From assembly GCA_943736015.1 (NCBI GenBank), contig OX031058.1, positions 14,967,001 to 15,031,000 of the forward strand: DNA of 64,000 nucleotides. Direction: 5' to 3'. Below the pieces are notes generated by a model. It made no database searches. It had not been told where the DNA came from and saw only the letters and a list, made by a program, of their open reading frames with translations. The stretch comes from Tridacna crocea (lineage: Eukaryota; Mollusca; Bivalvia; Cardiida; Cardiidae). Positions 2,778-60,215 of this stretch are shown here, one piece after another; within the stretch, counting starts at the first letter, position 1; each line of letters opens with the position of its first letter. The position numbers and the translations under genes are program-made.

Positions 2778-2968
2778 TCTCATAGGATGTCCTACCTATT
2801 GGATTTTCAATTAACAAACACTAATTAATACAAAGAAACTTTGGTGGTTTCAAAGTGATTGGAGTGAAATCCAAAATCACTATTAGCTTCACTGGTTGAA
2901 AGCCAGCAGAGCGTATGTCATGGTGTGGTTTCAGCCCGATAATCTTTTCTTGTTTGTAAACGGGATAG

Positions 2969-6965: not shown

Positions 6966-6988
6966 ACTACGGATCGGTTTACGACAGA

Positions 6989-9606: not shown

Positions 9607-10699
9607 ATCCATATACAGCGACAAACTCCCTTCAGAGGTCGAAAGTCTTGTGCAAACTCTCACAATCGCCCATAAATATCAAATAAACTATATAGTAGAT
9701 AGATGCTTTGATAAGCTTTCAGAAAAACTTACAACTGAGAATGCTTGTTCACTCCTGGATACTGCGATATTCTATGAAAATGAAGAACTGATGACAGTTG
9801 CTTGCAGATATATTGATACGAATTCAAAAGACATTTTGGAAAGCGAGGGATTCATTAAAATTTCCCCGCAGTGTCTTACATTTATACTGAAGGGTGATAC
9901 CTTTTTCACAGATGAAACCCAAATATTCGAACGATCTATGCAATGGGCTGAGAAACGATGTAGTTCCAGTGATGTGGAAAATCTTCGAAACACTCTTGGT
10001 GATGCTTTCTTTTATCTTAGGACCCCCGCTATGACTTTGAAAGAATTCATGAGCTGTACAAAAAGGAAAGGTTATTATACATTGCAGGAAACAGAGGATA
10101 TTATGGAAGCCATCGCAAACAAAGATGACGAAGAATACGATAAAATACTTTGTAATTCAAGGACTTCACGTATTCCTCTAGAAGTATGTGTAGGTACCGG
10201 GATATCTGAAAACAAACCTCGTTCATCTACTTATGTGTCATGTGCTACTGCTCAGCTAACACTGACCCCGAAAATTGACATACTTTTGACGGAAATCAAG
10301 TTTTCTGAACTTCACAAAGGAGGGATTAAAAACAAGATTTATTCAAACCACTATGATGAGTATGGTATGAGTGGACGCCAACTTAAAGCCACAGTTACGA
10401 TTGAAGCAATCGGTATAGATCAGGAATATACTTTTACTGTCCAAAAGACTCCCATATGTTTAAAGCTGAAAAAGCCTGTCTTACTTCAGTCGTCAAAAGA
10501 TGGCTATTGTCTAAAGATTGAGTTAAAGCCCACCAATATGAGTTTTTTCGAGTTGAAAGCACAAACAATGGAAGCTGATTCATTCTCAGATGACTTTGGA
10601 AAAATAACAATACGATGCGACTCTACATGCCACGCAATTATCAACGGATTGACATTTCATCATTTGTCTCATAGGAAAGGCAATAGCATTTCACTGTGA
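9607..10699 (+). CDS. BTB-BACK protein A, exon 2 (end of BTB, BACK, C-terminal domain)
   Basis: This terminal exon completes the split Arg codon (AG|A) and encodes residues 101-463. Order: SIYSDKLP plus the helix VESLVQTLTIAHKYQ closing the BTB domain; a BACK-type helical region at about residues 140-215 (ENACSLLDTAIFYENEELM, ILKGDTFFTDETQIFERSMQ, WAEKRC); a linker through YYTLQETEDIMEAIANKDD; then a beta-rich C-terminal region (about 285-463) with spaced strands such as QLTLTPKIDILLTEIKFSEL and DGYCLKIELKP. That region resembles a divergent PHR-type domain of BTBD proteins, which is only an inference. The acceptor at 9605-9606 was chosen because paralogue B has the same acceptor and equal exon length (1,093 bp). 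The stop is TGA at 10697-10699. Confidence 0.9.
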
Positions 10700-14783: not shown

Positions 14784-14798
14784 CCAGTCTATTTTAAA

Positions 14799-17700
14799 AT
14801 GCATTGGTTTACGGCCTCATTTTTTACTCTAGTCTTTATACTTTCCTCATGCACTATGGATACCATAATCCAGTGGAATTGTCGAGGTCTGAAGTCAAAC
14901 TTTGACGAACTTTCACTTTTAATCAATGATAACAAACCAGTTGCTGTTTGTTTGCAAGAAACCTTCCTTAAACGGAAAGATGATATCACTATAAAATATC
15001 ATTCTATTTACAACAAGATCTTTACCGAAGGCGAAAAAGCCAGAGGTGGTGTTTCTATTGTTATTAACAACAACATTCCTCACAAAGTTATCTCTTTAAA
15101 TACAAACTTGCAAGCTGTTGCCGTCAGGTTATCTTTACACAGTGCTGTTACACTGTGTTCTGTATACCTCCCCCCAAGCACACCTATCAATGAGACCAAT
15201 CTGAATGATCTCATTTCCCAATTGCCATCCCCCTATATTCTAGCTGGGGACTTTAATGGTCACAATGTTATGTGGGGTTGCAATGACACCAACCAGAGAG
15301 GTCTCCAGTTGGAGAACTTCATTTTGAACAACTCTCTGTCTTTCATGAATGATAACAAATCCAAAACCTACTTGCATCCAGCAACTGGATCTTACTCTTC
15401 CATTGATTTAACATTATGCAGCCCAGTCTTACTTCCCAATTTTACTTGGAAAGTGACTGAGGATTTGTGTGGAAGTGATCACTTCCCCATTATCTTTTCA
15501 TCTACACAACCGTCCAGTAGTGTACGACCGCAGAAATGGAAGCTTTCCAAAGCCAATTGGAATAAATTTGAAACCCTATGTGAACAGACCATTACACATG
15601 ATAAATTTGGAAATTTCGATGATCCTGCAAAACTTTTCACTTCCCTATTAATTGATGCAGCTGAACAGTCCGTCCCTCAGACCTCGACAAACCCAAAACG
15701 TCCTGACAAGCCTTGGTACAATGATGATTGCAAACAAGCTGTCAGAGACAGAAAACAGGCCCTTAGAAAATTTAATCTCAGGCCTACCAAAGACAATCTT
15801 AACTTATTCCGTATTTCCAGGGCAAAAGCCCGTCGTACCATTAAAGAAAGTAAGCGCAAGGCCTGGAGACAAAATGTCTCTAAGTTGAATAGTAGAACTA
15901 CTACTAAAAAAACCTGGGATATGATCAGAAAGATCAATGGCAAAGGCCAGACCCCTGTTAGTCACCTTGAGGTTAACAATACTTCGTTGGAATCTTCCCA
16001 GGATATAGCTGATGCTCTTGCTAACACCTTTTGCAAAAAGTCTTCCTCTGCATCTGCAAACTATTCAGAAAAGTTTCAGAGGAATAAAGCTAGAGAAGAA
16101 AAGAAAAAGCTTAATTTCAAGTCTTCGAATTCAGAGCATTATAATAAACTCTTCACTTTTAAAGAATTAAAATCTGCCCTGAATAAAACTCATGATTCTT
16201 CTCCTGGCCCAGATAAAGTTCATTACCAGTTTTTAAAACACTTACCTTTTACTTCCCTCTCAGTTTTACTTGATATTTTTAATGATATCTGGCAGTCAGG
16301 TGATTTTCCTGCATCCTGGCGGGAGGCACTTGTCATTCCTATCCCAAAACCTGGCAAAGATGCTAGTGACCCGGCTAACTATCGGCCAATAGCTCTTACT
16401 AGTTGTCTCTGCAAGACCCTAGAACGTATGGTCAACGACAGGCTTGTCTGGTTTTTAGAGAAGAACAACCTTATCGTTGATGTACAGAGTGGATTTCGTC
16501 GCCAGCGCGGCACCATAGATCATCTTGTCCGCTTTGAAACCTTTGTCAGAGAAGCCTTTATTAATAGACAGCATGTAGTATCTTTTTCGACCTTGAAAGC
16601 GCTTACGATACAACTTGGAAATACGGAATTCTGAAAGACTTGCATGACTTTGGTCTTCGAGGCCGTCTTCCTCTTTTTATTTCAGCCTTCTTGGATGAAC
16701 GTCTTTTCCGCGTCCGAGTTGGTAATACTGTCTCGGGAGCCCGTGAACAGGAGATGGGTGTACCCCAAGGATGTATTCTCTCTGTTACACTTTTCAGTGT
16801 AAAAATAAACAGTATAGTTAAAGCTATCTGTCCTGGTGTAGACTGTTCCCTCTATGTTGATGACTTCGTCATATGCTTCAGATCTCGAAATATGAATATT
16901 ATTGAGAGACAACTTCAGCAATGTCTCAACAAATTGCAAACATGGTCTGATGAAAATGGCTTCAAATTTTCAGTCCAAAACTAAGTGCATGCACCTCTGT
17001 AATCTACGAGGTGTTCATCCAGATCCTGAACTTTATCTGGACAAAACTAAAATTGAAGTCGTTTCTGAGTTTAAATTTCTTGGAGTCATCTTTGACAGAA
17101 AGCTTTCTTTCCTTCCTCACATCACTGCACTTAAAAAGAAGTGCAAGAAGGCTCTTAATCTTCTTAAGGTTGTGGCTCATTCTGAATGGGGAGCAGACCG
17201 TAAAGTCCTCTTGCGGCTTTATCGGTTTTTAGTTCGCTCCAAGTTGGACTATGGATCTGTTATATACGGATCAGCCCGTAAATCCTATCTGAAAATTCTC
17301 GATTCTATACATCACGAAGGTCTACGTCTTGTACTTGGAGCTTTCAGAACTTCTCCCGTCAATAGTCTTTATGTTGAGGCTAATGAACCTTCTCTTTCTT
17401 ACAGGAGAGAAAAACTCTCACTTCAATATATTTTAAAACTTAAGTCGAATCGTTTTAATCCAACTCATAACGTTGTCTTTAAACCTGAATATAAATGCCT
17501 TTTTGAAAGGAAACCAAATGTTATTCCTCCATTTGGTATCCGCATGGAGCCCATTGTAGATAACCTTGGCCTAGACACCGAATCTATTGCCGACTATAAG
17601 ATCTCTGAAATCCCTCCATGGACACTAAACAGTGCAGAATTCAGATTTGACCTTGCATCTGACAAAAAGTCTGTCACGGATAGAACTGTATTTCATGCTA

Positions 17701-18533
17701 GATACAACGAGATAAAGGAGCATTATTTTTCCTTCAAACCCATCTATACAGATGGATCTAAAGAAGGCAATTCTGTAGCAGCTGCCGCTGTTTATGGACA
17801 AAGGAGCTTAAAATGCCGCCTTCCAAACAACTCCTCTATCTTCTCTGCTGAAATTAAAGCAGTAGATCTGGCCCTTAATCTAGTTGAAAGTTCTAATTCC
17901 AACCGTTTTATTATCTTTTCAGACTCTTTGTCAACATTACAGGCCCTTTCAAATCAACGACTTGAGAATCCTTTAATCTGCAGTTTACTTGAAAGAATCT
18001 CACAAATTTCTTCTAAGAATAGACTGGTGTTCTGCTGGCTTCCAAGTCATGTAGGCATCAAAGGCAATGAAAATGCCGATAGGTCTGCCAAATCTGCACT
18101 TAACCTTCCCATTTCAGATTTTAAAGTTCCACACACTGATTTTAAATCCTCCGTTTTATCACATATCCAATCTTCTTGGCAATCCCAGTGGGATGCTGAT
18201 ATTTTCAATAAACTGCATTCAGTTAAACCATCCCTTGGTGAATGGTATCCCGTTTACAGATCCGTTCGTCGAGAAGAAGTGATAATTGCACGACTTCGAA
18301 TTGGCCATTCACGCATCACACATTCCTGGCTCTTGACAAGAGATGATGCCCCTGAATGTATACCATGCAATGCAACCTTTTCTGTAAAACATATCCTTCT
18401 AGATTGCATTGACTTTCAGCCAGTTCGTTCAAAATATTTCAATGTCAATAGTTTGAAAAATCTTTTTGATTCTGTCAGCGTTGAATCTATTATTGCTTTC
18501 ATAAAAGAGATTGGCATTTACAATAAACTGTGA
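14799..18533 (+). pseudogene. LINE ORF2: endonuclease, reverse transcriptase, RNase H; two frameshifts
   Basis: This polyprotein carries out target-primed reverse transcription. The in-frame ATGs are 14799 and 14856; the second starts directly at the endonuclease (MDTIIQWNCRGL) and is preferred. The APE endonuclease shows CLQETFL, LAGDFNGHNVMWG, SSIDLTLCSP and GSDHFPI (14860-15490). The RT shows SSPGPDKVHYQFL, YRPIALTSCLCKTLERM, QSGFRRQRGTIDHL, MGVPQGC and the catalytic YVDD at about 16854. RNase H shows YTDGSK, SAEIKAVDLAL, FSDSLSTLQAL and WLPSHVGIKGNENAD, so the D-E-D-D set is present. The C-terminus has a Cys-Cys-His-Cys motif (CIPC...HILLDC). Reading shifts at the T run 16583-16587 (fits loss of one T) and back at the T run 16967-16970 (fits one extra T). 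The RT palm is thus split, and this copy is not expected to make active protein as assembled. Confidence 0.9.
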
Positions 18534-23961: not shown

Positions 23962-25882
23962 TAGCTCACCTTAGCACAAAGTGCTAAAGGTGAGCTATTG
24001 TGACCGAATTTCTTTAAACATCTTCTCTTAAACCACAGGGCCAATCTTCATGAAACACGGCAGGAATGTTTCTTGGGTGAAGCTCAACCAAAATTGTTCA
24101 AAGAATTTAATTCCACCCATAGCTCTCGTTGCCATGGCAACAAAACGTAAAAAAAAACCGAAATCTTTGTGAATCGTCTTCTCTAAAACTAGAAGGCGTA
24201 GAGCTTTGATATTTGGCATCTCCTAATGGACCAAGTTTGTTCAAATTATGCCCATAGGGTCAAAACTGGCCCCGCCCCGGGGATAACGAGTTTAAGCATA
24301 GGAACAAGAAAGGAAAACTTTAAAATTCTTCTCCTCTGAAACTTGAAGGCGTAGAGCTTTGGTATTTGGTATGTAGCATCTCCTAGTAGACCTCTACCAA
24401 GTTTGTGCAATTTATATCCCTGGGGTCAAAACTGGCCCCGCACCAGGGGTCACAAGTTTGAGCATAGGAACAAAGAAGGAAAACTTTAAAAATCTTCTCC
24501 TCTAAAACTTGAATGCGTAGAGCTTTGATATTTAGTATGTGGCATCTCCTAGTGGACCTCTACCGAGTTTTTCAAATTATGCCCCTGGGGTCAAAACTGG
24601 CCCCACCCCAGGGGTCACAAGTTTGAGCATAGGAACAAAGAAGGAAAACTTTAAAAATCTTCTCCTCTGAAATTTGAAGGCGTAGAGCTTTGATATCTGG
24701 TATGTGGCATCTCCTAGTAGACCTCTACCAAGTTTGTTCAAATGATGTCCCTGGGGTCAAAACTGGCCCCACCCCAGGGGTCACAAATTTGAACATAGGA
24801 ACAAAGATGGAAAACGTTAAAATTCTTTTCCCCAGGAACTACAAAGCGTAGAGCTTTGATATTTAGTACGTTGCATCTCCTAGTGGACCTCTACCAAGTT
24901 TATTCAAATGATGTCCCTGGGGTCAAAACTGGCCCCACCCCGGGGGTCACTAGTTTGAGCCTAGGAACAAAGAAGAAAACTTTAAAATTCTTCTCTTCTG
25001 AAACTAGATTGCGTAGAGCGTTGATATTTGGTATGTGGCATCTCCTAGTAAACCTTTACCAAGTTTCTTTAAATCATGCCCGTGTGGTCAAAACTGGCCC
25101 CGCCCCGGGGTTCACAAGTTCGAACATAGGAACAAAGAAAGAAAATTTTAAAATTCCTCTTCTCTTAAACTAGAAGGCATAGAGCTATGATATTTGGCAT
25201 GTAGCAATTCCTAGTGGACCTGTGCCAAGTTTGTTCATATTATGCCCTTGGGGTCAAAACTGGCCCTGCCCCGGCGGGTCACAGGTTGGAACATAGCAAC
25301 AAAGAAGGAAAACTTTAGAAATCTTCTCTGAAACTTGAAGGTGGAGAGCTTTGATATATGGTATGCAGAATCTTCTTGAGGACTTCTACCAAGTTTGGTC
25401 ATATGATGTCCCTTGCGTCAAAACTGGCCATGCCCCGGAGGTCACAGGTTGGAACATAGGAACAAAGAAGGAAAATTTGAATTTTTTTTCTCTTAAACGG
25501 GAAGGTGTAGAGCTTTGATATTTGGTATGTAGCATCTTTGAGTGGACCTCTACCAAGTTTGTTCCAAGGATGCTGCTTTGGTTAAAACTGACCCAGCCCC
25601 GGGGACCACAAGTTCGAACATAGGACAAAGAAGGAAAATTTAAAATTCTTCTTTGAAACTGGAAGGTGTAGAGCTTTGATATTTGATTGCCCTATGTCCG
25701 GCGTCTGTCGCCCGTCAACAATTTCTTTAAACATCTTCTCCTAACCCACTGGGCCAATCTTGATGAAACTTGGCAGGGATGTTCCTTGGGTGAAGCTTTA
25801 CCAAAGTTGCTCAAAGAATTGAATTTCACTCATAAGCTATAGTCTAAGGTGAGTGTTCCAGGGCCAATGGCCTTCTTGTTTT
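23962..25882 (+). mobile_element. Family S element, copy S3 (core type 1, best array)
   Basis: The 5' hairpin is TTAGCTCACCTTAGCACAAA with GTGCTAAAGGTGAGCT. The leader includes TTGCCATGGCAACAAAA. The core comprises about nine tandem units of roughly 165-170 bp, each with GGCGTAGAGCTTTGATATTT, CCTCTACCAAGTTTG, GGGGTCAAAACTGGCCCC and CATAGGAACAAAGAAGGAAA. The leader-like sequence is repeated near the right end (25725-25840). The 3' hairpin CCAGGGCCAATGGCC is at about 25855, followed by TTCTTGTTTTT. It is non-coding. Confidence 0.75.
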
Positions 25883-28173: not shown

Positions 28174-28199
28174 AATACATCTAATAATGTGTACACCGT

Positions 28200-28317
28200 T
28201 AACACGGGTAGGAAACTTCATATTCAGAGCCAATGGCTCCGACGAGGAAATGTTGTGTTGGTCTTCCGTTTCTGAAGATGTCGGCTGAAAAACAATCCCA
28301 AAACAGGTAGGCATGTC
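28200..28317 (+). repeat. Inverted duplication, left arm, distal piece (cut off by element E)
   Basis: This piece matches the reverse complement of 39249-39366 (shared AGAGCCAATGGCTCCGACGA, AACAATCCCAAAACAGGTAG). It ends in GCATGTC directly at the left end of element E and resumes at 35605 beyond E. Confidence 0.85.
28312..28317 (+). repeat. 6-bp target-site duplication of element E, left
   Basis: CATGTC immediately precedes the left terminus TATGGAACGCCG and is repeated at 35605-35610 immediately after the right terminus CGGCGTTCCATA. The other arm of the inverted duplication has only one CATGTC at this site (reverse complement of 39249-39254). Confidence 0.9.
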
Positions 28318-29283
28318 TATGGAACGCCGTAGCTGTCTTTTCTTCAAAATAGTTATGTTGCTCAGTTCACTTTTAACTTGTATGAGTGAATTGAAATGAT
28401 GATCAGTCAGACAGGATTAAAGTCTTCTCTAAATATCATTTTGTTCCGTTGCCAAGCCATTAAGAAGTATTGGTTGGACATTTTGTTCTGTCTATTTCTC
28501 ATGATGTCAAGTTAGATTAACATTTTGTTCACTTCACTTTTATCTTCTTGGGTTGAATTGAAATGATAATCAGTCAGATGGGAATGAAAGTCTTCTCTAG
28601 ATATCATTTTGTTCGGTTATCAAGCCATTAAGAAGTGTTGGGTGATCATTTTGTTCTGTATATTTCTCATTATGTTCAGTTAGATTAACATTATGTTCAG
28701 TTCACTCTTATCCTATTGGGTTGAATTGAAATGATGATCAGTCAGCTGGGACTAAAGTCTTCTCTATATATCAATTTGTTCTGTTGCCAAGCCATTTAGA
28801 AGTATTGGGAAGACGTTTTGTTCTGTTTATTTCTCATTATGTCCAGTTAGATTAACATTATGTTGGGTTAACATGTTATTTGATTCCATCAACTGGTAAT
28901 GAAGTTCAGCTGACATAGCAATAGTTTTGCTTTACTATAATATCTTGTTCATTACTAGGGTATTTTATTCAGTTTATTGTTTATCATAATATGTTTACTC
29001 GTTAATATCTTACATCAGAGAGACTGGAATTATGTTAAGTGCTCATTTAGTTTACAAAGTACACATCATATTTGACAGTCTTATCATTGTATCTGGGTAT
29101 AAACAATTAAGCTTAGAAGGGATGATGCTATGTTTAGTTGAGTGAATATTACGTCCAGGTAGGATAGTATTATGTTTCGTTACCCCGATATTCTGTTTGG
29201 TTGATTGTCATTGTATCGAGTTGAAGTAACATTATGTTGAATAAACTTATGTGCATTTGGAAAACCTCGGTTTTAATCCGCAA
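28318..29283 (+). repeat. Element E left terminal inverted repeat (966 bp)
   Basis: This pairs with 34641-35604. It contains three tandem units of about 168 bp marked by TTGAAATGATNATCAGTCAG at 28391, 28558 and 28726, each with TTGCCAAGCCATT-like and ATTTCTCAT blocks. The inner edge is CTCGGTTTTAATCCGCAA. The TIR presumably carries transposition signals and may drive the ORF at 29313, but no specific motif was identified. Confidence 0.9.
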
Positions 29284-29312
29284 TCCGAACTTTTCCTCTT
29301 GTCCGGCGAAAA

Positions 29313-29543
29313 ATGGCGGTAAACGAGGAAAATACTCGGACAATTTTAAAGAAAGTCCTGCAAGATTTAGGACTGCCATCATTGATAACTTCATTTATAA
29401 TGGAGCGGATCGATGATGAAACAGCTGTTTACGTAAGCGACAGGGATCTGGTCAGACTTGGGATCGAGACAATGGGCGATCGACACTGGTTCCGTTCACA
29501 CTTGAAAAGTTGCAAGGCGGTCTACAAGTCGATTATTTTCTAG
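29313..29543 (+). CDS. SAM-domain-like small protein in element E
   Basis: This 76-residue ORF starts at ATG 29313, 30 bp inside the left TIR of element E. The pattern KKVLQDLGLPSLITSFIMER, then IDDET, LSD-like VSDRDLVRLGIETMGDRHWF and RSHLKSC fits a sterile alpha motif: five short helices with conserved Leu/Gly spacing. SAM domains mediate protein or RNA binding by oligomerisation. The protein covers little beyond the domain, so it could be a stand-alone adaptor, or the first exon of a longer spliced product with a donor not identified here. A decayed inverted copy of the 3' two-thirds lies at 32402-32717. No transposase motif is present. Cargo or accessory function is inference. Confidence 0.6.
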   Translation: MAVNEENTRTILKKVLQDLGLPSLITSFIMERIDDETAVYVSDRDLVRLGIETMGDRHWFRSHLKSCKAVYKSIIF

Positions 29544-29732
29544 ACGTATCCAGCATGAATTATAAACTCCGGTGCAGCCCGATGATCTCTAGTTCCACCA
29601 CTCTTAACATTTAAAATCTCGCATTTGTTTGAAGGATTTCATTTACCAAAGGATTATTTTTCATTCCTCAAAGTATATCAAGTCCGTTTGCCCTAAAACA
29701 CGTTCGCCTTATTAGGCCTATGAAAAAAATCA
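29402..29732 (+). repeat. Internal inverted repeat of element E, left copy
   Basis: This pairs with the reverse complement of 32388-32717. It includes the 3' two-thirds of the SAM-like ORF, its downstream region (AAACTCCGGTGCAGCCCGAT, GAAATCC/GGATTTCATTTACC) and ends at TAGGCCTATGAAAAAAATCA. The two copies differ by point changes and small indels. Confidence 0.85.
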
Positions 29733-30540
29733 AAGTACTGATAGTACTGAAGGCCAGGAAATTGAGGATATGAAACAACACATGAGGTCAATTTCAATTA
29801 ATACAAACAGGTAGACGGACAGGGATACAAGCGGATTCCACTAAGCCCCTGGAATTCTTGGTTTTATCAGGAAATTTTGAACTGATACTAGAAACCACCT
29901 GCCAGAAACTAATTAAGCCAGAGTTAGGCATGTGCTCACAGTTATGGGGTGCTTGATAATGGCTTAGAATACTTAGTAATTTGTCGTGCTTGTAAACAAT
30001 CCCAAGTCAAAATTGAACTGTATTCAATCAGCGCAATACCAACTTTTGTTATCTAAATTTTTTGAGACATGTGATGTCTTGTAGTCCTGAATGACTTTAT
30101 TTTTTACATTTATGACGCAAGAACATTTATTTTTATTGATTTCAATGAAAATACATGTAAGATAGATATCAAGGTAAAATGTAATGAATAATAAAAGATT
30201 GGAGTGATATGGCAGTTGGTCATTTTGTCTCTACCTTCCACAAGTCGACCAAATTTTGAACTGGTCATATTTGAAGGAAGTTGTAGATGAAAATCCAAAG
30301 TAGTTCTTCCTGAATATTGAAAAGTAAGATTTTGGGGAAATTGGGAGTTGCTTGTTACAAGCAAATTCTCTTCTAGCCAAAATATTTTTATCATAAAATA
30401 CTGTGAAAAGGTTGGATTGTTTTAGGAAAACGATTAGGCTTGGTTTTCCTATTTTACTTGCCTATTTTACGGACAAGTCACAATGACTTGAGCTTCGATA
30501 CTTATATCTACATAATATAAAAAGATGTTAATCTTAATTC
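29733..30540. other. Element E interior, no gene recognised
   Basis: No coding signature was seen. Part (30235-30420) vaguely recalls family M halves (AATACTGTGAAAAGGTTGG) but is too diverged to call. Confidence 0.4.
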
Positions 30541-30544
30541 ATAA

Positions 30545-30890
30545 TCGTTGTCCAAGGACAACTTGTGTCAAGCCCGCGAACACTTGACTCTCAAGCTTGA
30601 CCTAGACCCTGGACCTGAATAAATGTTTCAAAGGGAACTTCTGCTCATGATGGAGAACAATGCATTATGCTAATTTATATCGGAATCTATCCAAAAATGT
30701 AGGAGTTATGGTTCGGACGATAAATTGGCCTTCAATGTGGCCTTAATCTTGAACCTACTTGAACAGATGTTTCAAATGGCACATCTAACCATGATGTAGG
30801 TCAATTGTGCCAAATTATTTTGAAATCCATCCACAATTGTAGAAGTTATGGACCGGAAATTTTCGGATGCACACAATCCCTAGTGAACAC
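30545..30890 (+). repeat. Dimeric dispersed repeat inside element E
   Basis: Two related units share AATGTTTCAAAGGGAAC/GATGTTTCAAATGGCAC, CATGATG, CAAAAATGTAGGAGTTATGG/CACAATTGTAGAAGTTATGG and TTCGGACG/ACCGGAAA. The period is about 150-155 bp. Non-coding. Confidence 0.6.
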
Positions 30891-31343
30891 TAGAAATATG
30901 TGTGTCAGAAACACTGATGCCTCTGCTAAATGGTATTGGTCACAGGTATGTCATATGACACTAGTAGAGAGAGAGAGAGAGAGAGATGAAAAAAATACAT
31001 TAAATGACAAGCGAGCGACTACAGAAAAAAATTATAAGCATTTATTTGGTTTCAAATCAAAGTTAATCAAAGACATTTTTAAGAATCACACAGGTGTAAT
31101 CTATTTGTGACAGGTGTAAAAGGTGTGAAATACATCCTATCAGTGTGAAATAGGCAGTATAAACAATGACAAAACTACCAAATAACTCTTGGATAAAGGT
31201 AAATAATACACATAATGTACATGTATACTAAAGACAACGAAATTTCAAAAATATTTTTATAGACAACTTGATTAACGATATGAATGAAATTTGATGTTGG
31301 GGTCGATTTTTCTAAAATTTTATTTGGGGAGACGATTTCTCCG

Positions 31344-31478
31344 GAGTGATAAACATAACACGGGCCAAGCAGTTTGGGGACGATTTCTCCAGGGGCCAAT
31401 TTCTCCAGCATTCCGCTGAAGTACCCTAGATTTAGTCGATGTACATAAGAAAAAGTGATAAACATAACACGGGCCAAT
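31344..31478 (+). repeat. Short direct repeat pair (24 bp)
   Basis: AGTGATAAACATAACACGGG followed by CCAA occurs at about 31344 and 31455. CGATTTCTCC and CAATTTCTCC also repeat between them. Confidence 0.7.
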
Positions 31479-31997
31479 ATTCTATATGTAGTTTGCTTTA
31501 TTTACTATCGCATTTTAGCTGAGACGTGTTTTGTAACACATATGTTCAAATGTCAACACAACGTTATAGACAAACTCCGAGCAGAGTCGTCGTTCGTTAA
31601 TCTCACCATACCTGAATGTGATTGATCCGGAGTGCAAGAGAGAGCGTTATAGATATTAACCGTATAAAGCGCGTAAGAGTACACAACTGCCGGATAAAGC
31701 CAAGTTCATTAGGTTACGCCTTTATTAGGTCAGTGTTAATGACAAAAACGGGATGAAAAACACACACTCGTCAGTTATTAAAGAATTGTAATACCCTTGC
31801 AATTCCATGGCATTTTGCAGATGAAAGCTTTGAGGATAGGAAAGCATTTACACCGTGTGATAAGCAATCTCTGTAATATACTTGGGAAACTAGTTGTTTT
31901 GGCGGACTCAGCGATATAGAGTGGACACACCGTCCAACATTTTTGTCTGAATAGGCAGCTTACGATCCCTATAGGCAAGGGAATCCCTTGAGAGGGA

Positions 31998-32405
31998 TTC
32001 CCTGGCCTAAAAATCAGTCCGAGATGCCATAGGTAGGGTAGGTAGGGTTTTCTTTTTTCTCTAAATTTCTTTTACATGGACCATGTACTGAAATGCCACC
32101 TAAACATTTGGGACCGGTTTGACCTCCCCGGGGATCATTTGATGACAGGCCGGTTTGATTGCTGCCCAAATAAGGCCTAAGAAAACAAAGTTCTGTGTTT
32201 TGGGTTTCCAAACCCTACCTGAAAAATGCTGTCGACCCTAAACTTTTTACCCTACAGTTGAAATAATATTTTTTTCAGGTGGCATTTCAGTACATGGTCC
32301 ATGTAAAAGAAATTTAAAGAAAAACAAAAACACATGACAACCCTACCTACCCTACCTATGGCATCTCGGACCGAAACCCTAAACACTGATTTTTTTCTTA
32401 GGCCT
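31998..32405. mobile_element. Foldback MITE N inside element E
   Basis: The left GGCCTAAAAATCAGTCCGAG and GATGCCATAGGTAGGGTAGG pair with the right CCTACCTATGGCATCTCGGA and CTTAGGCC. Further in, TTTACATGGACCATGTACTG pairs with CAGTACATGGTCCATGTAAA. The arms are about 105-130 bp with a spacer of about 170 bp. A small hairpin AGGGAATCCC/GGGATTCCCT abuts it at 31977-32000. Confidence 0.75.
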
Positions 32406-32717
32406 AATTAAGGCGAACGCGTTTTAGGGCGAACGGACTTGATATACTTTGAAGAATGAAAAATAATCCTTTGGTAAATGAAATCCTTCAAACAAATGCG
32501 AGATTTTAAATGTTAAGAGTGGTGGAACTAGAGATCATCGGGCTGCACCGGAGTTTATAATTCATGCTGGATACGTCTAGAAAATAATCGACTTGTAGAC
32601 CGCCTTGCAACTTTTTAAGTGTGAACGGAACCGGTGTCGATCGCCAATTGTCTCGATCCCAAGTCTGACCAGATCCGTCGCTTAGGTAAACAGCTGTTTC
32701 ATCATCGATCCGCTCCC
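32388..32717 (-). pseudogene. Inverted, broken copy of the SAM-like ORF region
   Basis: This is the reverse complement of 29402-29732. It retains RERIDDETAVYLSDG-like sequence, but the first 30 codons of the ORF are absent (replaced at 32718) and an indel after the VSD/LSD segment shifts the frame (GSGQTWDRDNW instead of the SAM ending). It is therefore non-functional as a SAM domain. Confidence 0.8.
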
Positions 32718-33060
32718 TTAAAAATGGACTTAGTCTTTGTCCTACTTTTCTATCCAATCAGAACGCTCATATTTGAAAATTTTTGACCGTCTATCTTCCA
32801 TAAACTACCCAACGCAGGTTTATTTTGATCATTTATTCATTTAAACGTCGCAGTTTATCTGGATTTACTGCGCATGCGTACATAAACCCTACGCCCTCAT
32901 TAATATTCAACAGTTACTTAGATTAGATGTAGCACATGCCAAGTGGTAAAACACAGATCTATACAAATTATGTAATAAAAGCCGATCAATCTAGATGGTC
33001 GGTTTTCCTCTAAAACCATACCACCTGCAGTTTGAAACAAGCTGTAGTTACAAGGTTTAA

Positions 33061-34127
33061 AGGTTGGTATTTAGAGTTTTCATATCTCACCAAATTAAAA
33101 AAAAAAACAGATCTATATATCACTGAAATTTATATGAAAAAAAAAATCATCATTGATTGAGAATCATAAAATTACCAAAAAAAAATTTTTGGTGGTATTC
33201 CCTTAAAGGTGGCCTTTAGAATTTGGGACGAAAATTTTACAAAAGTACAAAAAAATCATCATTATACTCCCAAAGCCTTTCAATTTTCATTCAATAAACC
33301 CAAGTGGTTGAAACCATCAGACAATTAGAGAATTCAGAGATTTACTACGGCCAAGGTCAACACCGACGGGAAACACGGTCTATTTTTACATGAGCAGCTA
33401 CCTCATTTACATACCTGAAATAGACAGACATAGCGTCAAACATAGCGTCCGAAGAAGACATTATGGAAAGTAATTATATGTTTGTTATGTTATGGAATTT
33501 AAGCGTCATTAGTCACGTGTTAGGAGCATAACATTCCAACAATGCCTTTTTGATTTTTGGCGGGAAATCTAAAAACAGCTTAAGAGGCTACGTGGCCTTT
33601 TAAGGGAATACCATAAAAAAATGTTTACTGTGACTTTATGAGTTTTAATTAATGATGATTTTCTTTTCATATAAATTTCAGTGATATATTTATTTTTGAA
33701 TTTGATGTGATGTTAAAAACCTAAATACCCACCTTTAAAAGGCTACGTAGCCTATTAAGGTATTTAAAGATTTCGCGCCAAAAATGAAAAAAGGATTTTG
33801 GGAATTTCAAGTGACTGTTACGTGACTAATTCCATAACATAACAAACATGCAATTATTTTCTATAATGTCTTCTTGGGACGCTATATTTGAAGCTTCGTC
33901 TGTGTAGTTCTGGTATGTAAATGAGCGAGTTGCTCATCTAAAAATAGACCGTGTCTCCCGTCGGAGTCAACCTGGGCCGTAGTAAATCTCTAATTTCTCT
34001 TGTTGTCGGGTGGTTTTGGATTACAGGGGTTTTATGGATGAAAATTAAAAGGCTTTGGGAGTACAAAGATGATTTAAAAAATGTGTATTTTTGTAAAATT
34101 TTCGTCCCAAAACCTGAAAGGCCACCT
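33061..34127 (+). mobile_element. TTAA MITE P, outer copy, interrupted
   Basis: The ends AGGTTGGTATTTAGA and GAAAGGCCACCT are flanked by TTAA at 33057-33060 and 34128-34131. Its own sequence is 33061-33206 plus 33739-34127 (about 535 bp). It is split by a second P in opposite orientation at its internal TTAA. The uninterrupted version, ATTCCCTTAAAAGGCTACGT, is seen in the copy at 59672-60211. Confidence 0.88.
33207..33734 (-). mobile_element. TTAA MITE P, inner copy nested in P
   Basis: This 528-bp complete copy runs AGGTGGCCTTTAGA...TAAATACCCACCT. It is flanked by TTAA at 33203-33206 and 33735-33738, and lies in reverse orientation to the host P. TTAA duplications point to piggyBac- or Kolobok-type mobilisation. 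It carries no transposase. Confidence 0.9.
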
Positions 34128-34328
34128 TTAAGAAGTAAATCGACGATATGTTGAAATTTAAAGAAAAAATATTGCTGTACATAGATCTAGTAAATCAGTA
34201 GACATTTCCATTAGTTGAGTCTAGCCGTTACTTCCTCAAAATCTTGGTCAAATTCTGCCATATTTGACATTGTTTAACACTGGCGATAGTCAAGTGTGAA
34301 CTGGAAAAGATGCTGATAATGAAGGTTT

Positions 34329-34567
34329 ATTAATCGTTTCCCGTACGACAAATTTTAGACCATTCCAAATTGAAATCATCTGCAGATTGCAGATGTCAAA
34401 TTTTGAAAGTGGAACAAATGAAGTTGAGGTTTTTGACAGGGAAGAAAATATTGTAGGAAAAGGAAAAAATGCTGGCAACCAGAATTTTCTCCTTTTCCAA
34501 CAATAATTGCAATAATCTTCCTCCCCAGGGTCGTTAAAACAATGGATTGTTTGGTAAAGGGTCAAAT
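34329..34567 (+). mobile_element. Family M MITE inside element E
   Basis: The features TTTTAGACCATTCCAAATTG, GGAAAAGGAAAAAATGCTGG, CCAGAATTTTCTCCTTTTCC and GTTTGGTAAAGGGT match the M pattern. The terminal TTAA on the right is mutated (GTCAAA). Confidence 0.75.
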
Positions 34568-34640
34568 ATCACGTGGTCGTGTGCGAGTTGTTTAGCCCCG
34601 ATTACGTCATATTTTAGCGATGATGCAATGATGACGTTTC

Positions 34641-35604
34641 TTGCGGAGTAAAACCGAGGTTTTCCAAATGAACATAAGTTTATTCAACATAATGCTACTT
34701 CAACTCGATACAATGACAATCAACCAAACAGAATATCGAGGTAACGAAACATTTTACTATCCTACATGGACGTAATATTCACTTAACTAAACATAGCATC
34801 ATCCTTTCTTACTATAATTGTTTATATCCAGATACAATGATAAGACTGTCAAATATGATGTGTACTTTGTAAACTAAATGACCAGTTAACATAATTCCAG
34901 TCTCTCTGGCGTAAGATATTGACGAGTGAACAAATTATGATAAACAATAAACTGAATAAAATACCCTTGTAATGAACAAGATATTATAGTAAAGCAAAAC
35001 TATTGCTATGTCAGCTGAACTTCATTACCAGTTGATGGAATCAAATAACATATTAACCCAACATAATGTTAATCTAACTGGACATAATGAGAAATAAACA
35101 GAACAAAACGTCTTCCCACTACTTCTAAATGGCTTGGCAACAGAACAAATTGATATTTAGAGAAGACTTTAGTCCCAGCTGACTGATCATCACTTCAATT
35201 CAACCCAATAGGATAAGAGTGAACTGAACATAATGTTAATCTAACTGAACATAATGAGAAATAAACAGAACGAAATGTTCACCCAACACTTCTTAATGGC
35301 TGATAACCGAACAAAATGATACCTAGAGAAGACTTTAATCCCATCTGACTGATTATCATTTCAATTCAACCCAAGAAGATAAAAATGAACTGAACAAAAT
35401 GTTAATCTAACTTGACATCATGAGAAATAGACAGAACAAAATGTCCAACCAATACTTCTTAATGGCTTGGCAACCGAACAAAATGATATTTAGAGAAGAC
35501 TTTAATCCTGTCTGACTGATCATCATTTCAATTCAACCCAACAAGTTAAAAGTGAACTGAGCAACGTAACTATTTTGAAGAAAAGACAGCTACGGCGTTC
35601 CATA
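34641..35604 (-). repeat. Element E right terminal inverted repeat
   Basis: This is the reverse complement of the left TIR (28318-29283), including the three 168-bp subrepeats. The outer end CGGCGTTCCATA is at 35593-35604. Point differences from the left arm show the two have diverged since insertion or are maintained imperfectly. Confidence 0.9.
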
Positions 35605-37019
35605 CATGTCAATATTTGTAATTATGTGTTCTTATGTCTTTGAAATTCAAAAAAAGGAGAATGTCATTCGATGCTTTGGTCTTTCAACGTGTTTTCTGCA
35701 CTATGGAAAGTTGGAATAGGTGTACAATGTTGTCTGAATCATTTGTGGCGTGGATTGACCGTAGCCAAAATAATACGTCCCGGAGATAAATTCAGTCTGT
35801 TATTACCATTTAATTGGCATGTAAGAGAGAGTCTTACTGTCCCAAAGCCGTGAACTAATGTCCCGAAATGTTACATTCACTACTGGTCAAAAATTGAAAA
35901 GAAAAGCACAAGAATTGATTAAAATAAAGAAGGGCTCTGATTGTGTGGACCGGCTCTGACTATGTTACTCGGCACTGATTCAAGAGGGCTCCCTTTCAAA
36001 GTTTTAGTTTTCTGTAAATAATTAGTCAGGACGTAAATTTTGGTTTTCCATCAATATCTTTCTGTCCAAAATTTAGTTCATTTGTTGGATGGAACATGAT
36101 TGCATGTATGAAAATACAAAGGACTGGTATTGTCACGTTAGAAAAATGCTGTTTAACATTAGTCTATCTAAATTTTGAAAATACTTCTGCAAAGATTTTG
36201 ATTAGACCGAATGGTCTATATATAAAATTGTTCGTGCTTTTGTCGCAAATGCAGCCCACACATAAGCACAAATAATGAAACATATTTTCTTTTAGAAGTA
36301 CGAGAATGATAAACACAGCACGTGTTTGAGTGGTCTAGATGCATGAATTTGCATTATGAAGTTTATGAATCATTTTTCAGCCATCAACATAATTCTTTAC
36401 ATATAATTGAAACTTTAGAAACAAAATCATTGTTTTGCGAAACAATTTAAAAAGGTCACATGTAAAAGTCATTTCGAAATCTGTCACCACCCCTACTATC
36501 ATCACCACATCAATGACTTTGATGAATCAGAATTCTGCAAATAAACTTTGGATAGATCACCCAGCAACAGTTTCTTGCAGAAGAGCACATGCTCGAAAGT
36601 GACTAAAATCATGAGTCCAACGAGAGAACCACATGCAGGTGCCAACAATAAGATGTTGTTTTTCGACGGATTAAAAATTTCCAAAACGATTTTTGAAAAG
36701 GGTCACCCTAGACATATCTATGAAATTATTTCAAAGTGTGACCAGCCATTCCAGAGAAGATTTCTTTTTAACTTCTTCATGTACATACAGTGTTAATATC
36801 CCACAGCCATCAGAGCCATGTTTCTTGATGGATCAAAATTTCTTCAAACACTTTGCGAAAAGGGTCAACCAAGGAACATTTCTGTGAATGTATTTCAAAA
36901 TCTGACAAGCCCTTCCAGAGAAGAATTTTTAATAATTTCTTCATGGCTGTACAGTGCAAGTGGCCACCTGCACCCCAGTCAGAGCCATGTTTCTAGACAG
37001 ATCAATTTTCGCGAACAGT
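35605..37019 (-). repeat. Inverted duplication, left arm, proximal piece
   Basis: This is the reverse complement of about 37839-39254, symmetric about 37429.5. The left tip CATGTCAATATTTG is the right flank of element E. Near the centre it carries family S type-2 core units in minus orientation (36670-37019). An open frame at 35671-35853 recurs in the other arm at 39006-39188 (-) with one residue changed, but recent duplication alone explains this. Confidence 0.9.
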
Positions 37020-38450
37020 CTTCCGAGTCCGTCGTCAATAATTTCTTTAAATTTCTTCTCCTCTTAAACCACGGGCTGATATAGACCAAACTTGGCTGGA
37101 ATGTTTCTTGGGAGGACCTCTTTGAAAATTGCTCACAGAATTTGGTTCCATCAAAAACCCTGGTTGCCAGGAAATTCTTTCAAAATCTTCACCTCTGAAA
37201 CTTCTCGTCAGATTTTGAAATCATTTCACAGAGATGTTCCTTGGGTGACCCTTTTCAAAAATTGTAGGCGAAATTGTAACCCCGTAAGAAACATGGCTGT
37301 GGTGAATGAGGGCTACTTGCACTGAACGGAAATGAAGAAATTCTTGAAAATTCTTCTTGAAACCGCTGGTTAGATTTAAAATAATTTCACAGAAATATTC
37401 CTTGGGTTAACCTTTTCCAAAATTGTTCGCGAAATTTTGATGTCAAAAGATCTGGCTCTGTTGAATGCCAATGAATTGGGGCTACTTGCACTATACAGAA
37501 ATGAAAAAAAAAAAATTCTAAAAAATGTTCTTTATTTTGATCAGTCAATAAAACACTGCTCTGATGAATAGGGACTACTTGCACTATGGCCATGAAGAAA
37601 TTCTTAAAAATTCTTCTTCCCAGAAACCGATGGGTCAGATTTTGGAATCATGTCACAGAGATAAATTCCTTGGGTGACCTTTTTCAAATATTGTTCGCGA
37701 ATTTTGATCCGTCAATAAATATAGCTCCCGGTGAATGGGGGCTACTTGCACTATACAGAAAATTCTTCTTCGCTGAAACGGCTGGTCAGATTTTGAAATA
37801 ATTTCAGAGAGATGTTCCTTTGGTGACCCTTTTCAAAAACTGTTCGCGAAAATTGATCTGTCTAGAAACATGGCCCTGATTGGGGTGCAGGTGGCCACTT
37901 GCACTATACGGCCATAAAGAAATTATTAAAAATTCTTCTCTGGAAGGGCTTGTCAGATTTTGAAATACATTCACAGAAATGTTCCTTGGTTGACCCTTTT
38001 CGCAAAGTGTTTGAGAAATTTTGATCCATCAAGAAACATGGCTCTGATGGCTGTGGGCTATTAACATTGTATGTACATGAAGAAATTAAAAAAAAAAATC
38101 TTCTCCGGAATGGCTGGTCAGACTTTGAAATAATTTCACAGATATGTCTAGGGTGACCCTTTTCAAAAATCGTTTTGAAAATTTTTAATCCGTCGAAAAA
38201 CAACATCTTATTGTTGGCACCTGCATGTGGTTCTCTCGTTGGACTCATGATTTTAGTCACTTTCGAGCTTGTGCTCTTCTGCAAGAAAATGTTATTGGGT
38301 GATCTATCCAAAGTTTATTTGCAGAATTCTGATTCATCAAAATCATTGATGTGGTGATGATAGTAGGGGTGGTGACAGATTTCGAAATGACTTTTACAGG
38401 TGACCTTTTTAAATTGTTTCGCAAAATAATGAATTTGTTTCCAAAGTTTC
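37020..38450 (+). mobile_element. Family S-like element S5 (core type 2), inside the inverted duplication
   Basis: A leader lacking the 5' hairpin (AATAATTTCTTTAAATTTCT, CCACGGGCTGATATAGACC) is followed by type-2 core units. The distal part 38200-38450 matches 50820-51070 of S4 (CACCTGCATGTNGT, ATCTATCCAAAG, TTTGCAGAATTCTGATTCAT, ACTTTTACAGGTGACC). The 3' half also forms the right arm of the inverted duplication, so the duplication broke inside the S core. Confidence 0.65.
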
Positions 38451-39366
38451 AATTATATGTAAAGAATTATGTTGATGGCTGAATAATGATTCATAAACTT
38501 CATAATGCAAATTCATGCATCTAGACCATTCAAACACGTGCTGTGTTTATCATTCTCGTACTTCTAAAAGAAAATATTTTTCATTATTTGTGCTTATGTG
38601 TGGGCTGCATTTGCGACAAAAGGACGAAAAATTTTATAAATGGACCATTCAGTCTAATCAAAAGCTATGCGGAAGTATTTTCAAAATTTAGATAGACTAA
38701 TGTTAAACAGCATTTTTCTAACGTGGCATCACCAGTCCTTTGTATTTTCATACATGCAATCATGTTCCATCCAACAAATGAACTAAATTTTGGACAGAAA
38801 GATATTAATGGAAAACCAAAATTTACGTCCTGACTAATTATTTAAAGAAAACTAAAATTTTGAAAGGGAGCCCTCTTGAATCAGTGCCGAGTACCATAGT
38901 CAGAGCCGGTCCACATAATCAGAGCCCTTCTTTATTTTTATCGATTCTTGTGCTTTTCTTTTCAATTTTTGACCAGTAGTGAATGTAACATTTCGGGACA
39001 TTAGTTCACGGCTTTGGGACAGTAAGACTCTCTCTTACATGCCAATTAAATGGTAATAACAGACTGAATTTATCTCCGAGACGTATTATTTTGGCTACAG
39101 TCAATCCACGCCACAAATGATTCAGACAACATTGTACACCTATTCCAACTTTCCATAGTGCAGAAAACACGTTGAAAGACCAGAGCATCGAATGACATTC
39201 TCCTTTTTTTGAATTTCAAAGACATAAGAACACATAACAACAAATATTGACATGCCTACCTGTTTTGGGATTGTTTTTCAGCCGACATCTTCAGAAACGG
39301 AAGACCAACACAACATTTCCTCGTCGGAGCCATTGGCTCTGAATATGAAGTTTCGTACCCGTGGTT
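37839..39366 (+). repeat. Inverted duplication, right arm (uninterrupted)
   Basis: The arm of about 1.53 kb corresponds to 28200-28317 plus 35605-37019 in reverse. At 39249-39254 it shows the pre-insertion target of element E: one GACATG between CAAATATT and CCTACCTG. The spacer between the arms is about 820 bp. Confidence 0.9.
39281..39352 (+). other. Possible orphan exon in the inverted duplication
   Basis: After the acceptor-like TTTTGGGATTGTTTTTCAG (AG at 39279-39280) a 72-bp open stretch reads PTSSETEDQHNISSSEPLAL and then NMKF, ending before GTACCC. The same stretch, reverse-complemented, lies at about 28214-28285, where the donor G is replaced (CTACCC). There is no homology call. This could be chance. 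Confidence 0.2.
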
Positions 39367-39587
39367 AAAGTCTGTTCCCTGAAGGACGTAGCAATGCGAT
39401 AAGGGCGGGTTTAAAATGAAAACTAGGGAGTTGCCGTATTATGGTTGACATCAGACTTATTCGGTGTACATTTAACCTCTACCATTCGCTCCCGCCATCT
39501 TCCTTTGACCGGTGTACATTTAAAATAATAACGCGGCCAAGTTATCCTGCGAAAAATTAGTCCTAACTAGAAAAGTGGAAGTTTTAA

Positions 39588-47435: not shown

Positions 47436-47996
47436 CTATATTTTTTTTATTTTGTCAAAGCCATAAACGTTTACACTAATTTCTGAATTTTGTTTCTCAA
47501 ACTTATCTATATCTTTTAAAGATACAGGATACATTATTCCCCACATGGTTACATTATTTTCCTTTGCTTGCAAATCTCTCTCAGCTCTCTCTGGATGATT
47601 TTCTTCAGGATTTAGCGGTCTTAAAACACACCATAAAAAGCATTTGTTATCTTGATTTTTCATGTTGATAACTGTTCTTTTATTTACAATCCACTTTGGT
47701 AAAAGTAAGTGACCTCTAGCACGTAAAGGATCATAAACAGCTGTGTGTAGTTCGAACTGCACTTTACTTGTAAAAGTAAAACCGCTACCTTCTTTTTGAA
47801 ACAAAGCTAACTTTTCTAAATTTTCATCTATCACATATTGCACAAACGTATCTATACCTTCCTCATTTAAGTTTACCTGTTGCCTAGAGTGAAAAGCATG
47901 TTCCCTCTCTGAGTTAGGGTCTCTGGGCAAATGTAATCTACACCTAAGTACTAACTTTACCTTTGTCGGTTTCTTCGAAGAGAACATCCCTCGCAT
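47436..47996 (-). CDS. Fragment of a polymerase-B-linked mobile-element protein
   Basis: This open frame of 186 residues on the minus strand contains KVKLVLRCRL, AFHSRQQVNLNEE, FTFTSKVQFELHTAVYDPLR, LLLPKWIVNKRTVINMKNQD, NKCFLWCVLRPLNPEENHPE and YPVSLKDIDKFEKQN. I recognise this as the conserved region that precedes a type-B DNA polymerase in large virus-like mobile elements of invertebrates. That link is from memory of the family, not from this window. The frame stops right after the NVYGFDK region where family members continue, so the polymerase part is missing. The ATG at 47994-47996 directly follows an acceptor-like TTTTTCACAG, and the same frame upstream is interrupted. Likely a decayed remnant; the biochemical role is unknown. 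Confidence 0.6.
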   Translation of the reverse strand: MRGMFSSKKPTKVKLVLRCRLHLPRDPNSEREHAFHSRQQVNLNEEGIDTFVQYVIDENLEKLALFQKEGSGFTFTSKVQFELHTAVYDPLRARGHLLLPKWIVNKRTVINMKNQDNKCFLWCVLRPLNPEENHPERAERDLQAKENNVTMWGIMYPVSLKDIDKFEKQNSEISVNVYGFDKIKKI

Positions 47997-48002
47997 CTGT
48001 GA

Positions 48003-48300
48003 AAAACATAGGGGATAAATAACCTTCTCTTCCCTCTATGACATTTGGGTAACATGTCCTCCAAATGCGGCCTTGGGGTGGGGTGGGGGGTAACTTTCTC
48101 TAACATGTTGTAAAATTTCATCTAACACTTGTGGTATCTGTGTTGTCTCTACATTAGCAGTAAGCTAATTGCTAAAATCAGTTATTCTTCTCTGTATGGG
48201 TTCTGGATCAACGGCTGACGCCAGGCGCCTTGCTCCAGAGTAGATATTAGATGCAGCCTGTCTAGCTACGTTACCAATATTACGTGTAGATTTTTTTTTT
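48003..48300 (-). pseudogene. Upstream remnant of the same mobile-element protein
   Basis: The reading frame shared with 47436-47996 continues upstream and is coding-like: Arg/Ala-rich (VARQAASNIYSGARRLASAV), then TTQIPQVLDEILQHVRESYP. It is broken by an in-frame TAG at 48165-48167 and another near 48040, and by a G/C homopolymer stretch (48070-48090) after which the reading loses sense. Either a pseudogene or exons whose splice sites I cannot place. Confidence 0.5.
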
Positions 48301-59667: not shown

Positions 59668-59671
59668 TTAA

Positions 59672-60211: not shown

Positions 60212-60215
60212 TTAA

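Follow-up and report, generated by a model that had tools for sequence, protein, structure and literature searches.

A transposase-less transposon of Tridacna crocea with IS3EU-like ends, TIRs largely of 21-bp units and giant relatives in the same genome

Transposons of the IS3EU superfamily (Repbase) are recognized by TAYGG..CCRTA ends and 6-bp target-site duplications (PMC12730594), a pattern that the available text of a second account gives as TA..TA ends and, usually, 6-bp duplications (PMC10045372). Insofar as the accessible parts of these sources go, such elements encode an IS3/IS481-like DDE enzyme without the HHCC pattern, carry extra genes beside the transposase and, in a rust-fungus set, have terminal inverted repeats (TIRs) "longer than 30 bps". 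Other systems are similar in one respect or another, again judging from the portions of their descriptions available. GingerRoot, from a clubmoss and compared by description alone, has 6-bp duplications and mostly TA..TA ends (PMC10045372); Styx of Zymoseptoria is a multi-gene element with an IS3EU-like transposase and 36-bp TIRs, whose copies its authors searched for at a 6-bp duplication setting (PMC10853768). In Tetris and other Drosophila foldback elements the TIRs are long and contain tandem subrepeats of ~220 bp, and a transposase is lacking; Tetris, however, has 8-10-bp duplications and is assigned by its authors to Mutator (PMC4079207). Teratorn and Starships span tens of kb between their ends and carry cargo, but the former is a piggyBac plus a herpesvirus (PMC6431247), the latter use a tyrosine recombinase, and neither has an IS3EU-type DDE enzyme.

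Element E, described here, lies in a 64,000-nucleotide stretch of the Tridacna crocea genome (the window). E and its relatives of 32-34 kb in the same genome, at least three in number (the giants), have the ends and duplications of IS3EU, and the giants also have its type of enzyme and genes beside it. They differ from the IS3EU elements of the accessible accounts in size (the giants), in the missing transposase (E) and in ~1-kb TIRs; relative to that text, what is new is the 21-bp units that make up much of the TIRs of E and the giants, and a separate SAM gene in both lineages. A literature search, mostly of titles and the openings of abstracts, returned no IS3EU element that has a SAM gene or arrayed TIRs of ~1 kb, or that reaches ~30 kb. 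We consider E to be a non-autonomous IS3EU-like element moved in trans by the transposase of the giant lineage or of a closer relative, and put the probability of this reading at about 0.8.

Borders, repeats and interior of element E

E occupies 28318-35604 (7.3 kb) and is flanked on both sides by CATGTC. In the surrounding inverted duplication the sister arm, read as its reverse complement, crosses the insertion point uninterrupted with one CATGTC, which bears out the description of E, in an earlier note on this DNA, as a transposon with its own empty site. The sister arm matches 28199-28317 with 98.3% identity over 120 columns and the match ends left of 28199; the evidence for the empty site thus extends over ~119 bp to the left and 1.4 kb to the right. 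With up to three mismatches allowed, an 18-mer of the E end has exactly two occurrences in the window and none in 100 shuffles.

28312-28317, unstranded: left target-site duplication CATGTC, perfect copy
28318-29283, plus strand: left TIR, 966 bp, largely degenerate 21-bp units, starting TATGGAACGCCGTAGC
28362-28864, plus strand: three higher-order subrepeats of 168 bp (8 x 21 bp) in the left TIR, 3.0 copies
34641-35604, minus strand: right TIR, 964 bp
35060-35560, minus strand: three subrepeats of 167 bp in the right TIR, 3.0 copies
35605-35610, unstranded: right target-site duplication CATGTC, perfect copy
37836-39254, minus strand: sister arm of the inverted duplication, right half of the empty site, 96.5% identical to 35605-37022
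39249-39368, minus strand: sister arm, left half of the empty site, with the single CATGTC (GACATG at 39249-39254)

The measured TIR lengths and subrepeats agree with the 965-bp TIRs and 168-bp subrepeats reported earlier. Left and right TIRs are identical at 925 of 964 aligned bases, position 39 being the first mismatch. The 21-bp units, in E and the giants alike, are degenerate, lie on one strand and correspond to about two helical turns; lag-21 periodicity reaches z 7.5 and 6.3 in the E TIRs and z 5.9-8.0 in the six giant TIRs. Lag 21 is the top lag also outside the 168-bp arrays (z 4.9), although strict 21-bp phase beyond these arrays is not above shuffles (0.136 vs a mean of 0.101 and a maximum of 0.174).

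Between the TIRs lie the following parts:

29313-29543, plus strand: SAM-like ORF, 76 codons, stop codon at 29541-29543, with a relative in the giants
29733-32008, unstranded: 2.28-kb segment (element coordinates 1416-3691) present in the 7.3-kb form of the family and not in the 5.0-kb form
32014-32374, unstranded: nested palindromic repeat, arms 32014-32104 and 32274-32374
32387-32732, minus strand: second copy of the SAM region, inverted, truncated and frame-broken, 96.5% identical to 29386-29732
33056-34137, unstranded: nested palindromic dispersed repeat, with a relative at 59659-60218
34337-34566, unstranded: dispersed repeat with several relatives in the window

Two further observations of the earlier note hold: the SAM-like ORF starts 30 bp inside the inner TIR edge at 29283, and no recognizable transposase is present. 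When 29284-34640 is scanned with Pfam in six frames up to E=1, the one match is that to SAM (E=0.19, in a long read-through). Rfam and tRNA scans of the window give no matches. The ORF itself matches Pfam SAM_1 at E=0.0013, and its best solved-structure sequence match is a SAM domain (E=0.0096); its single-sequence structure model (pLDDT 80.5) has weak Foldseek matches, SAM domains included, none of them at E <= 0.001. It has no relative in a large protein collection; the giants were reached by using it as a query against the genome. The SAM label is a prediction from sequence, with the E ORF below the Pfam cut-off and the giants' SAM gene above it. Between E and the giants the SAM genes share 58% amino-acid identity over 67 codons, with a dN of 0.27; no dS value was returned, which we take as saturation. 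Within the E family the ORF looks to be evolving neutrally, with 10 synonymous, 19 replacement and 2 stop changes (expected fractions 0.25, 0.71 and 0.04) among 18 gap-free copies, a count that leaves out L012, L013 and L022 (gaps or rearranged).

The E family in the host genome

Exact matches to the outermost 15 bp of E number 135 in the host genome, against 0 and 0 in the reversed control, and the 20-bp E end finds no match in viral contigs. TIR matches at 97-100% identity number at least 41, window included, a lower bound from the 40 scored of 144 candidates. The earlier note proposed to look for other copies and their 6-bp duplications, and these exist: 18 of 20 further copies fetched have both ends, the same 16-bp ends in every case, and the 6-bp duplication is perfect in 13 of the 18, carries one mismatch in three (by reading) and is absent from two. 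Among the 100 places listed, out of 135, there are 39 facing end pairs, 27 of 4-6 kb and seven of 6-8 kb; the family consists mostly of ~5.0-kb and ~7.3-kb forms, with TIRs that differ by about 2% between copies. TIR divergence is no insertion clock here: across 14 copies, left TIRs diverge from one another by 2.0% and right TIRs by 2.1%, and left from right within a copy by 3.4%. Terminal TAYGG..CCRTA is found in the window E, in all 18 two-ended copies and in all three giants. The earlier note had considered 6-bp duplications with very long TIRs uncommon and the TAT..ATA termini unlike usual Polinton ends; in themselves, 6-bp duplications with TAT..ATA ends are nothing odd and are the published IS3EU signature.

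Giant relatives and a possible source of the transposase

If E encodes no transposase, what moves it? The three giants, of 32.4-34.4 kb (C17, C2 and C16), have the outer 27 bp in common with E, TIRs of ~1 kb and perfect target duplications of 6 bp (CTAATG, TACAGA, CCCATC). A DDE exon of IS481/IS3-like type, open in all three, is located close to one end, and a small SAM gene close to the opposite end; the giants are longer relatives with an integrase-type exon between the same ends, such as the earlier note had hoped to find. That note also held that sequence shared beyond the ends would speak against a transposon; homology of the giants' flanks ends within 3 bp of the element ends. An upstream SAM-HTH exon is complete in the C17 and C2 giants and mostly deleted in C16, where residues 156-188 only remain of the upstream ORF (this giant was read except for 12.3 kb). 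As far as sequence can tell, the C17 and C2 giants carry a gene that looks complete for a transposase, with a predicted intron GTAAGT..TTTCAG. The C17 DDE exon matches PF24764 (5e-71), rve (1.2e-7, just under its cut-off) and the NCBIfam models for IS481 (4e-12) and IS3 (3.6e-5), both far under their curated cut-offs; its catalytic pattern is D-56-D-32-E, and the HHCC pattern is absent. The best solved-structure match of the DDE exon is HTLV-2 integrase (E=0.0069), and named relatives of the transposase include several bivalves. A 701-bp cargo piece has three genome matches, one per giant. That PF24764 stands for IS3EU is our assumption, which ends, duplications and IS481/IS3 matches support.

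The transposase would be supplied in trans by the giant lineage, or by an unsampled relative closer to E, and would recognize the outer bases common to E and the giants; it may also bind the 21-bp units as repeated sites on one helix face. It would then excise E and insert it at a target cut with a stagger of 6 bp. The E lineage, for its part, would descend from an autonomous ancestor whose SAM end it retained and partly copied inwards, while the transposase was lost and nested repeats accumulated. A plain internal deletion of these giants is ruled out: the TIRs of E and the giants are 78-81% identical over aligned columns, and the interior of E shares with the giant parts compared (L029, L033, L037, L039 and L040) the SAM region and short dispersed repeats only; for the same reasons, the true helper may be closer.

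It is possible, if rather unlikely, that the helper of a non-autonomous, IS3EU-like E is a different autonomous element, closer than the three giants. The ~20% divergence between E and giant TIRs fits this, as does a SAM ORF located some 0.94 kb inward of an exact E-type end at C8:55999387; this ORF is 72% identical to E's (residues 1-54), vs 59-61% for the giants' SAM. However, of the 147 PF24764 matches listed (from 150 scored of 228 candidates) none is within 100 kb of C8:55999387 and the nearest is about 129 kb from it, and the sole facing pair of 12-60 kb among the 100 places listed, out of 135, is a giant. As a separate candidate, a multi-copy PF24764 gene beside the E copy at C5:37828573 is not supported as helper; the left end of that copy falls within a pre-existing repeat, and L031 shows this repeat without the interruption (left half only).

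Polintons can have long TIRs, and E might be a degenerate Polinton/Maverick. Target duplications of 6 bp are, in the accessible text, common to Polintons (PMC10045372). This origin is nonetheless very improbable: the ends are TATGG..CCATA, the giants' DDE enzyme matches IS481/IS3 models, and six-frame Pfam scans of E and of the giant interior stretches L039 and L040 find no polymerase domain (protein-primed DNA polymerase B included) and no capsid or protease gene. The 6-bp duplication of E fits Polinton/Maverick too, but is common to IS3EU and so not diagnostic. Equally hard to credit is a Mutator-type foldback element whose TIRs resemble a satellite. In its long TIRs, which contain tandem repeats, and its lack of a transposase E recalls Tetris, as the available description of the latter has it (PMC4079207), but duplications of 6 bp, not 8-10, already contradict this, and the related DDE exon is IS481/IS3-like. 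That E is an artefact of the inverted duplication whose arms it adjoins is next to inconceivable, already refuted by the same ends with different 6-bp duplications at other loci.

Giant transposons and their possible dependants

A bolder reading, speculative and in our view doubtful, would go further. Giant IS3EU-type transposons of 32-34 kb with cargo may form an animal lineage in which the ~1-kb TIRs are arrays of sites on one strand, in phase with roughly two turns of the helix, and the transposase starts with a SAM domain that pairs with the separate small SAM protein; SAM-SAM assembly on the arrays would either join the far-apart ends or restrain transposition, and E-type elements, with their SAM ORF and arrays, would parasitize or repress the giants.

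A puzzling transposase-less element now has a plausible helper lineage. The giants indicate that mobilizing ~32 kb between two ends is within the capacity of an IS3EU-like element, and the design of TIRs from 21-bp units, together with the SAM partner gene, is open to direct testing.

Boundaries, empty site and family of E

Element E, which the earlier note had described as a 7.3-kb transposon with terminal inverted repeats (TIRs) of about 965 bp and CATGTC on both sides, is confirmed at 7,287 bp (window 28318-35604): its TIRs, of 966 and 964 bp, align at 95.95% identity, with the first mismatch at base 39, and CATGTC is present at both ends. The uninserted site claimed for the sister arm of the surrounding inverted duplication also stands: in reverse complement, this arm joins the left and right neighbors of E through a single CATGTC, matching 28199-28317 at 98.3% and 35605-37022 at 96.5%. 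This match goes no further left than 28199, so the left side of the empty site is supported by about 119 bp of sequence and the right side by 1.4 kb.

E inserted with a 6-bp duplication and belongs to a multiplied family. With 40 of its 144 candidates scored, the left TIR has at least 41 matches in the host genome (1.049 Gb, 31 contigs) at 97-100% identity, the window among them. Both ends were found at 18 of the 20 best TIR places outside the window; of the other two, L021 has no partner end inside the fetched stretch and L022 is a rearranged copy. All 18 two-ended copies have identical 16-bp ends; as the earlier note expected of other insertions, 13 carry a perfect 6-bp duplication and three (L018, L023, L027; by our reading) one with a single mismatch, the duplication being absent in L013, which adjoins a second TIR piece, and L024, in which the right TIR is interrupted. 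The main size forms are ~5.0 kb and ~7.3 kb, the larger having an extra 2.28 kb (29733-32008). The exact 15-bp end occurs 69 + 66 times genome-wide (reversed control, 0 + 0); of the 135 places, 100 were listed, and they include 39 facing pairs (two <300 bp, 27 of 4-6 kb, seven of 6-8 kb, two of 8-12 kb, and one of 32.7 kb) and 22 places partnerless within the list. Very short facing pairs, at G000 (host genome) C9:46212917-46213105 (189 bp) and C7:36650288-36650626 (272 or 339 bp), are possibly MITE-size derivatives.

Among 14 copies, window included, divergence between copies is 2.0% for left TIRs and 2.1% for right TIRs, and the two TIRs of one copy differ by 3.4%; since the within-copy value is the larger, the left-right difference is mostly inherited and does not reflect insertion age. 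In one exception, L028, the copy's own two TIRs cluster together.

TIR arrays and interior of E

The 168-bp subrepeats reported earlier are present as three 168/167-bp units in each TIR and are a higher-order unit of a 21-bp repeat (168 = 8 x 21). Self-comparison peaks at lag 21 (z = 7.5 left, 6.3 right); lags 42, 63, and the subrepeat length also give peaks, and lags 5 and 16 minor ones. Folded at period 21, the whole left TIR scores 0.127 and a single 168-bp unit 0.468, each higher than any of 500 shuffles (maxima of 0.069 and 0.335). In the TIR stretch inside of the subrepeats (bases 548-966), the strongest lag remains 21 (z 4.9) and folding (0.136) falls within the shuffle range (mean 0.101, maximum 0.174); thus, the 21-bp phase is loose there. 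The motif ATTNTGTT is confined to the inward-pointing strand of the E TIRs (12 and 10 occurrences, 0 on the other). Scanning the left TIR with one observed unit, TTCAGTTAGATTAACATTATG, at ≥13/21 matches finds 15 sites (other strand, 5); 200 first-order random sequences give a mean of 2.2 and a maximum of 7. Twenty-one bp is about two helical turns of DNA, so these sites would share one helix face. The window also holds 166-170-bp arrays; none is similar to the 168-bp units of E in window self-comparison.

Features of the window (window coordinates)
5628-6194, 24230-25685, 37780-38169, 49323-50318: arrays, period 166-170 bp; the 5.6-, 37.8-, and 49.3-kb arrays mutually related, the 24.2-kb one related to 3.6-4.2 kb
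6926-7291, 9527-10699, 62836-63969: pieces coding for BTB/BACK domains; two are duplicates (76% DNA identity)
13371-18533: non-LTR retrotransposon, frame broken between ORFs; endonuclease and reverse transcriptase domains (scan of 14784-16631)
32387-32732: second SAM-region copy in E, inverted and frame-broken
47436-48035 (-): 199-aa ORF without a Pfam match, which we take to resemble invertebrate Polinton polymerase proteins

Just inside the left TIR, where the earlier note placed a SAM-like ORF, 76 codons encode a SAM-like protein; the remaining interior is made partly of palindromic and dispersed repeats. The earlier note saw no transposase: none is recognizable in a six-frame Pfam scan of E, the one family member so scanned, and inspection of ORFs of ≥110 aa in E, the 18 copies, L021, and L022 revealed no transposase-like ORF.

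Giant relatives and their transposase

If E lacks a recognizable transposase, which elements encode one? Besides family copies, a genome search with the SAM ORF finds 59-61% matches on contigs C16, C17, and C2, lying 27-29 kb away from open 296-aa frames with a PF24764 integrase domain, a 72% match on C8, and weaker ones. The first three mark giant elements, longer relatives of the kind that the earlier note proposed to look for, with an integrase-type frame between the same ends.

Giant elements (lengths derived from end coordinates) and a cargo piece
C16:37486040-37518407: 32,368 bp, duplication CTAATG
C17:32241679-32276077: 34,399 bp, duplication TACAGA
C2:7933796-7966449: 32,654 bp, duplication CCCATC
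L039:4589-4909 (-): HECT-domain piece in the giants' cargo (ORF 8.4e-8; read-through 6.5e-6)

The outer 27 bp are common to E and both ends of all three giants; homology beyond the ends, which the earlier note held would speak against a transposon, stops ≤3 bp out in the giants' flanks. A 701-bp cargo piece has three genome matches, one per giant. In six frames of L039 and L040, the stretches of the C16 giant's interior that were scanned, the HECT ubiquitin-ligase piece is the only over-cut-off match. The C17 and C2 TIRs are ~990 bp (left vs. right, 94.3 and 93.2%); the left TIR match of C16 breaks off after ~611 bp. All six giant TIRs have the same 21-bp periodicity (z 5.9-8.0), with 6-8 occurrences of ATTNTGTT on one strand and 0 on the opposite; in the aligned TIR part, the giants have one 168-bp unit and E three.

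The transposase would span two ORFs. The upstream ORF (188 aa in C17 and C2) combines SAM-like and HTH-like regions (in C17, SAM_2 E = 4.2e-4, just above its cut-off, and several weak HTH matches); in C16, residues 156-188 alone are left, the remainder falling within a stretch missing from that copy. The downstream 296-aa ORF matches PF24764 (5e-71) and rve (1.2e-7). The C17 inter-ORF gap contains splice-site motifs, GTAAGT as donor and TTTCAG as acceptor, from which we infer that the two ORFs would be joined by splicing. A protein collection contains 981 relatives at E ≤ 0.001, and the 120 listed have named sources that include Mytilus, Dreissena, Mercenaria, Mactra, and Solemya; the four inspected are predicted as uninterrupted proteins, 435-503 aa long, in which the parts keep their order, and one, P0085, has a precomputed SAM_2 label alongside integrase labels. 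Against NCBIfam, the DDE part matches IS481 (4e-12) and IS3 (3.6e-5), both far below curated cut-offs; in C17, the catalytic spacing is D-56-D-32-E, and the HHCC pattern was not found in this sequence. An intron-split PF24764 gene with in-frame stops (L031, L032, L030) occurs at dozens of places, and the left end of one E copy sits within it.

The giants' SAM gene (67 aa) is over the Pfam cut-off (SAM_1 2.1e-5) and shares 58% amino-acid and 64% nucleotide identity with that of E over 67 codons. With dN = 0.27 and a missing program dS value that we take as saturation, the comparison suggests that selection kept the gene between the two lineages; recent changes inside the E family look neutral. 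At G000 C8:55999387, an exact E-type end accompanies the SAM ORF 72% identical to that of E, closer than the giants'. A third giant lineage may be represented at G000 C4:58250375-58271573, where ~21 kb separates PF24764 exons from a remote SAM match (38%).

Superfamily placement and mobilization

IS3EU, a DNA transposon superfamily, is described as having TAYGG..CCRTA ends and 6-bp duplications (PMC12730594), or TA..TA ends, 6-bp duplications as a rule, and no HHCC (PMC10045372). Every published mark tested here is found: TAYGG..CCRTA ends, 6-bp duplications, and, in the C17 giant, an enzyme without HHCC. Two C. gigas satellites were labeled IS3EU earlier (PMC8268682). Comparison with the giants shows that E did not arise from them by simple internal deletion; Polinton and Mutator-foldback readings are contradicted by ends, genes in the stretches scanned, or duplication length.

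E is a sister lineage of the giants. It has no recognizable transposase and shares its ends with elements that encode one; E may be mobilized in trans, its TIR arrays may be bound, and SAM-SAM contact could play a role. The superfamily is already known; in the accessible parts of the IS3EU literature searched we found no report of arrayed ~1-kb TIRs, a 32-34-kb size, or a partner SAM gene.
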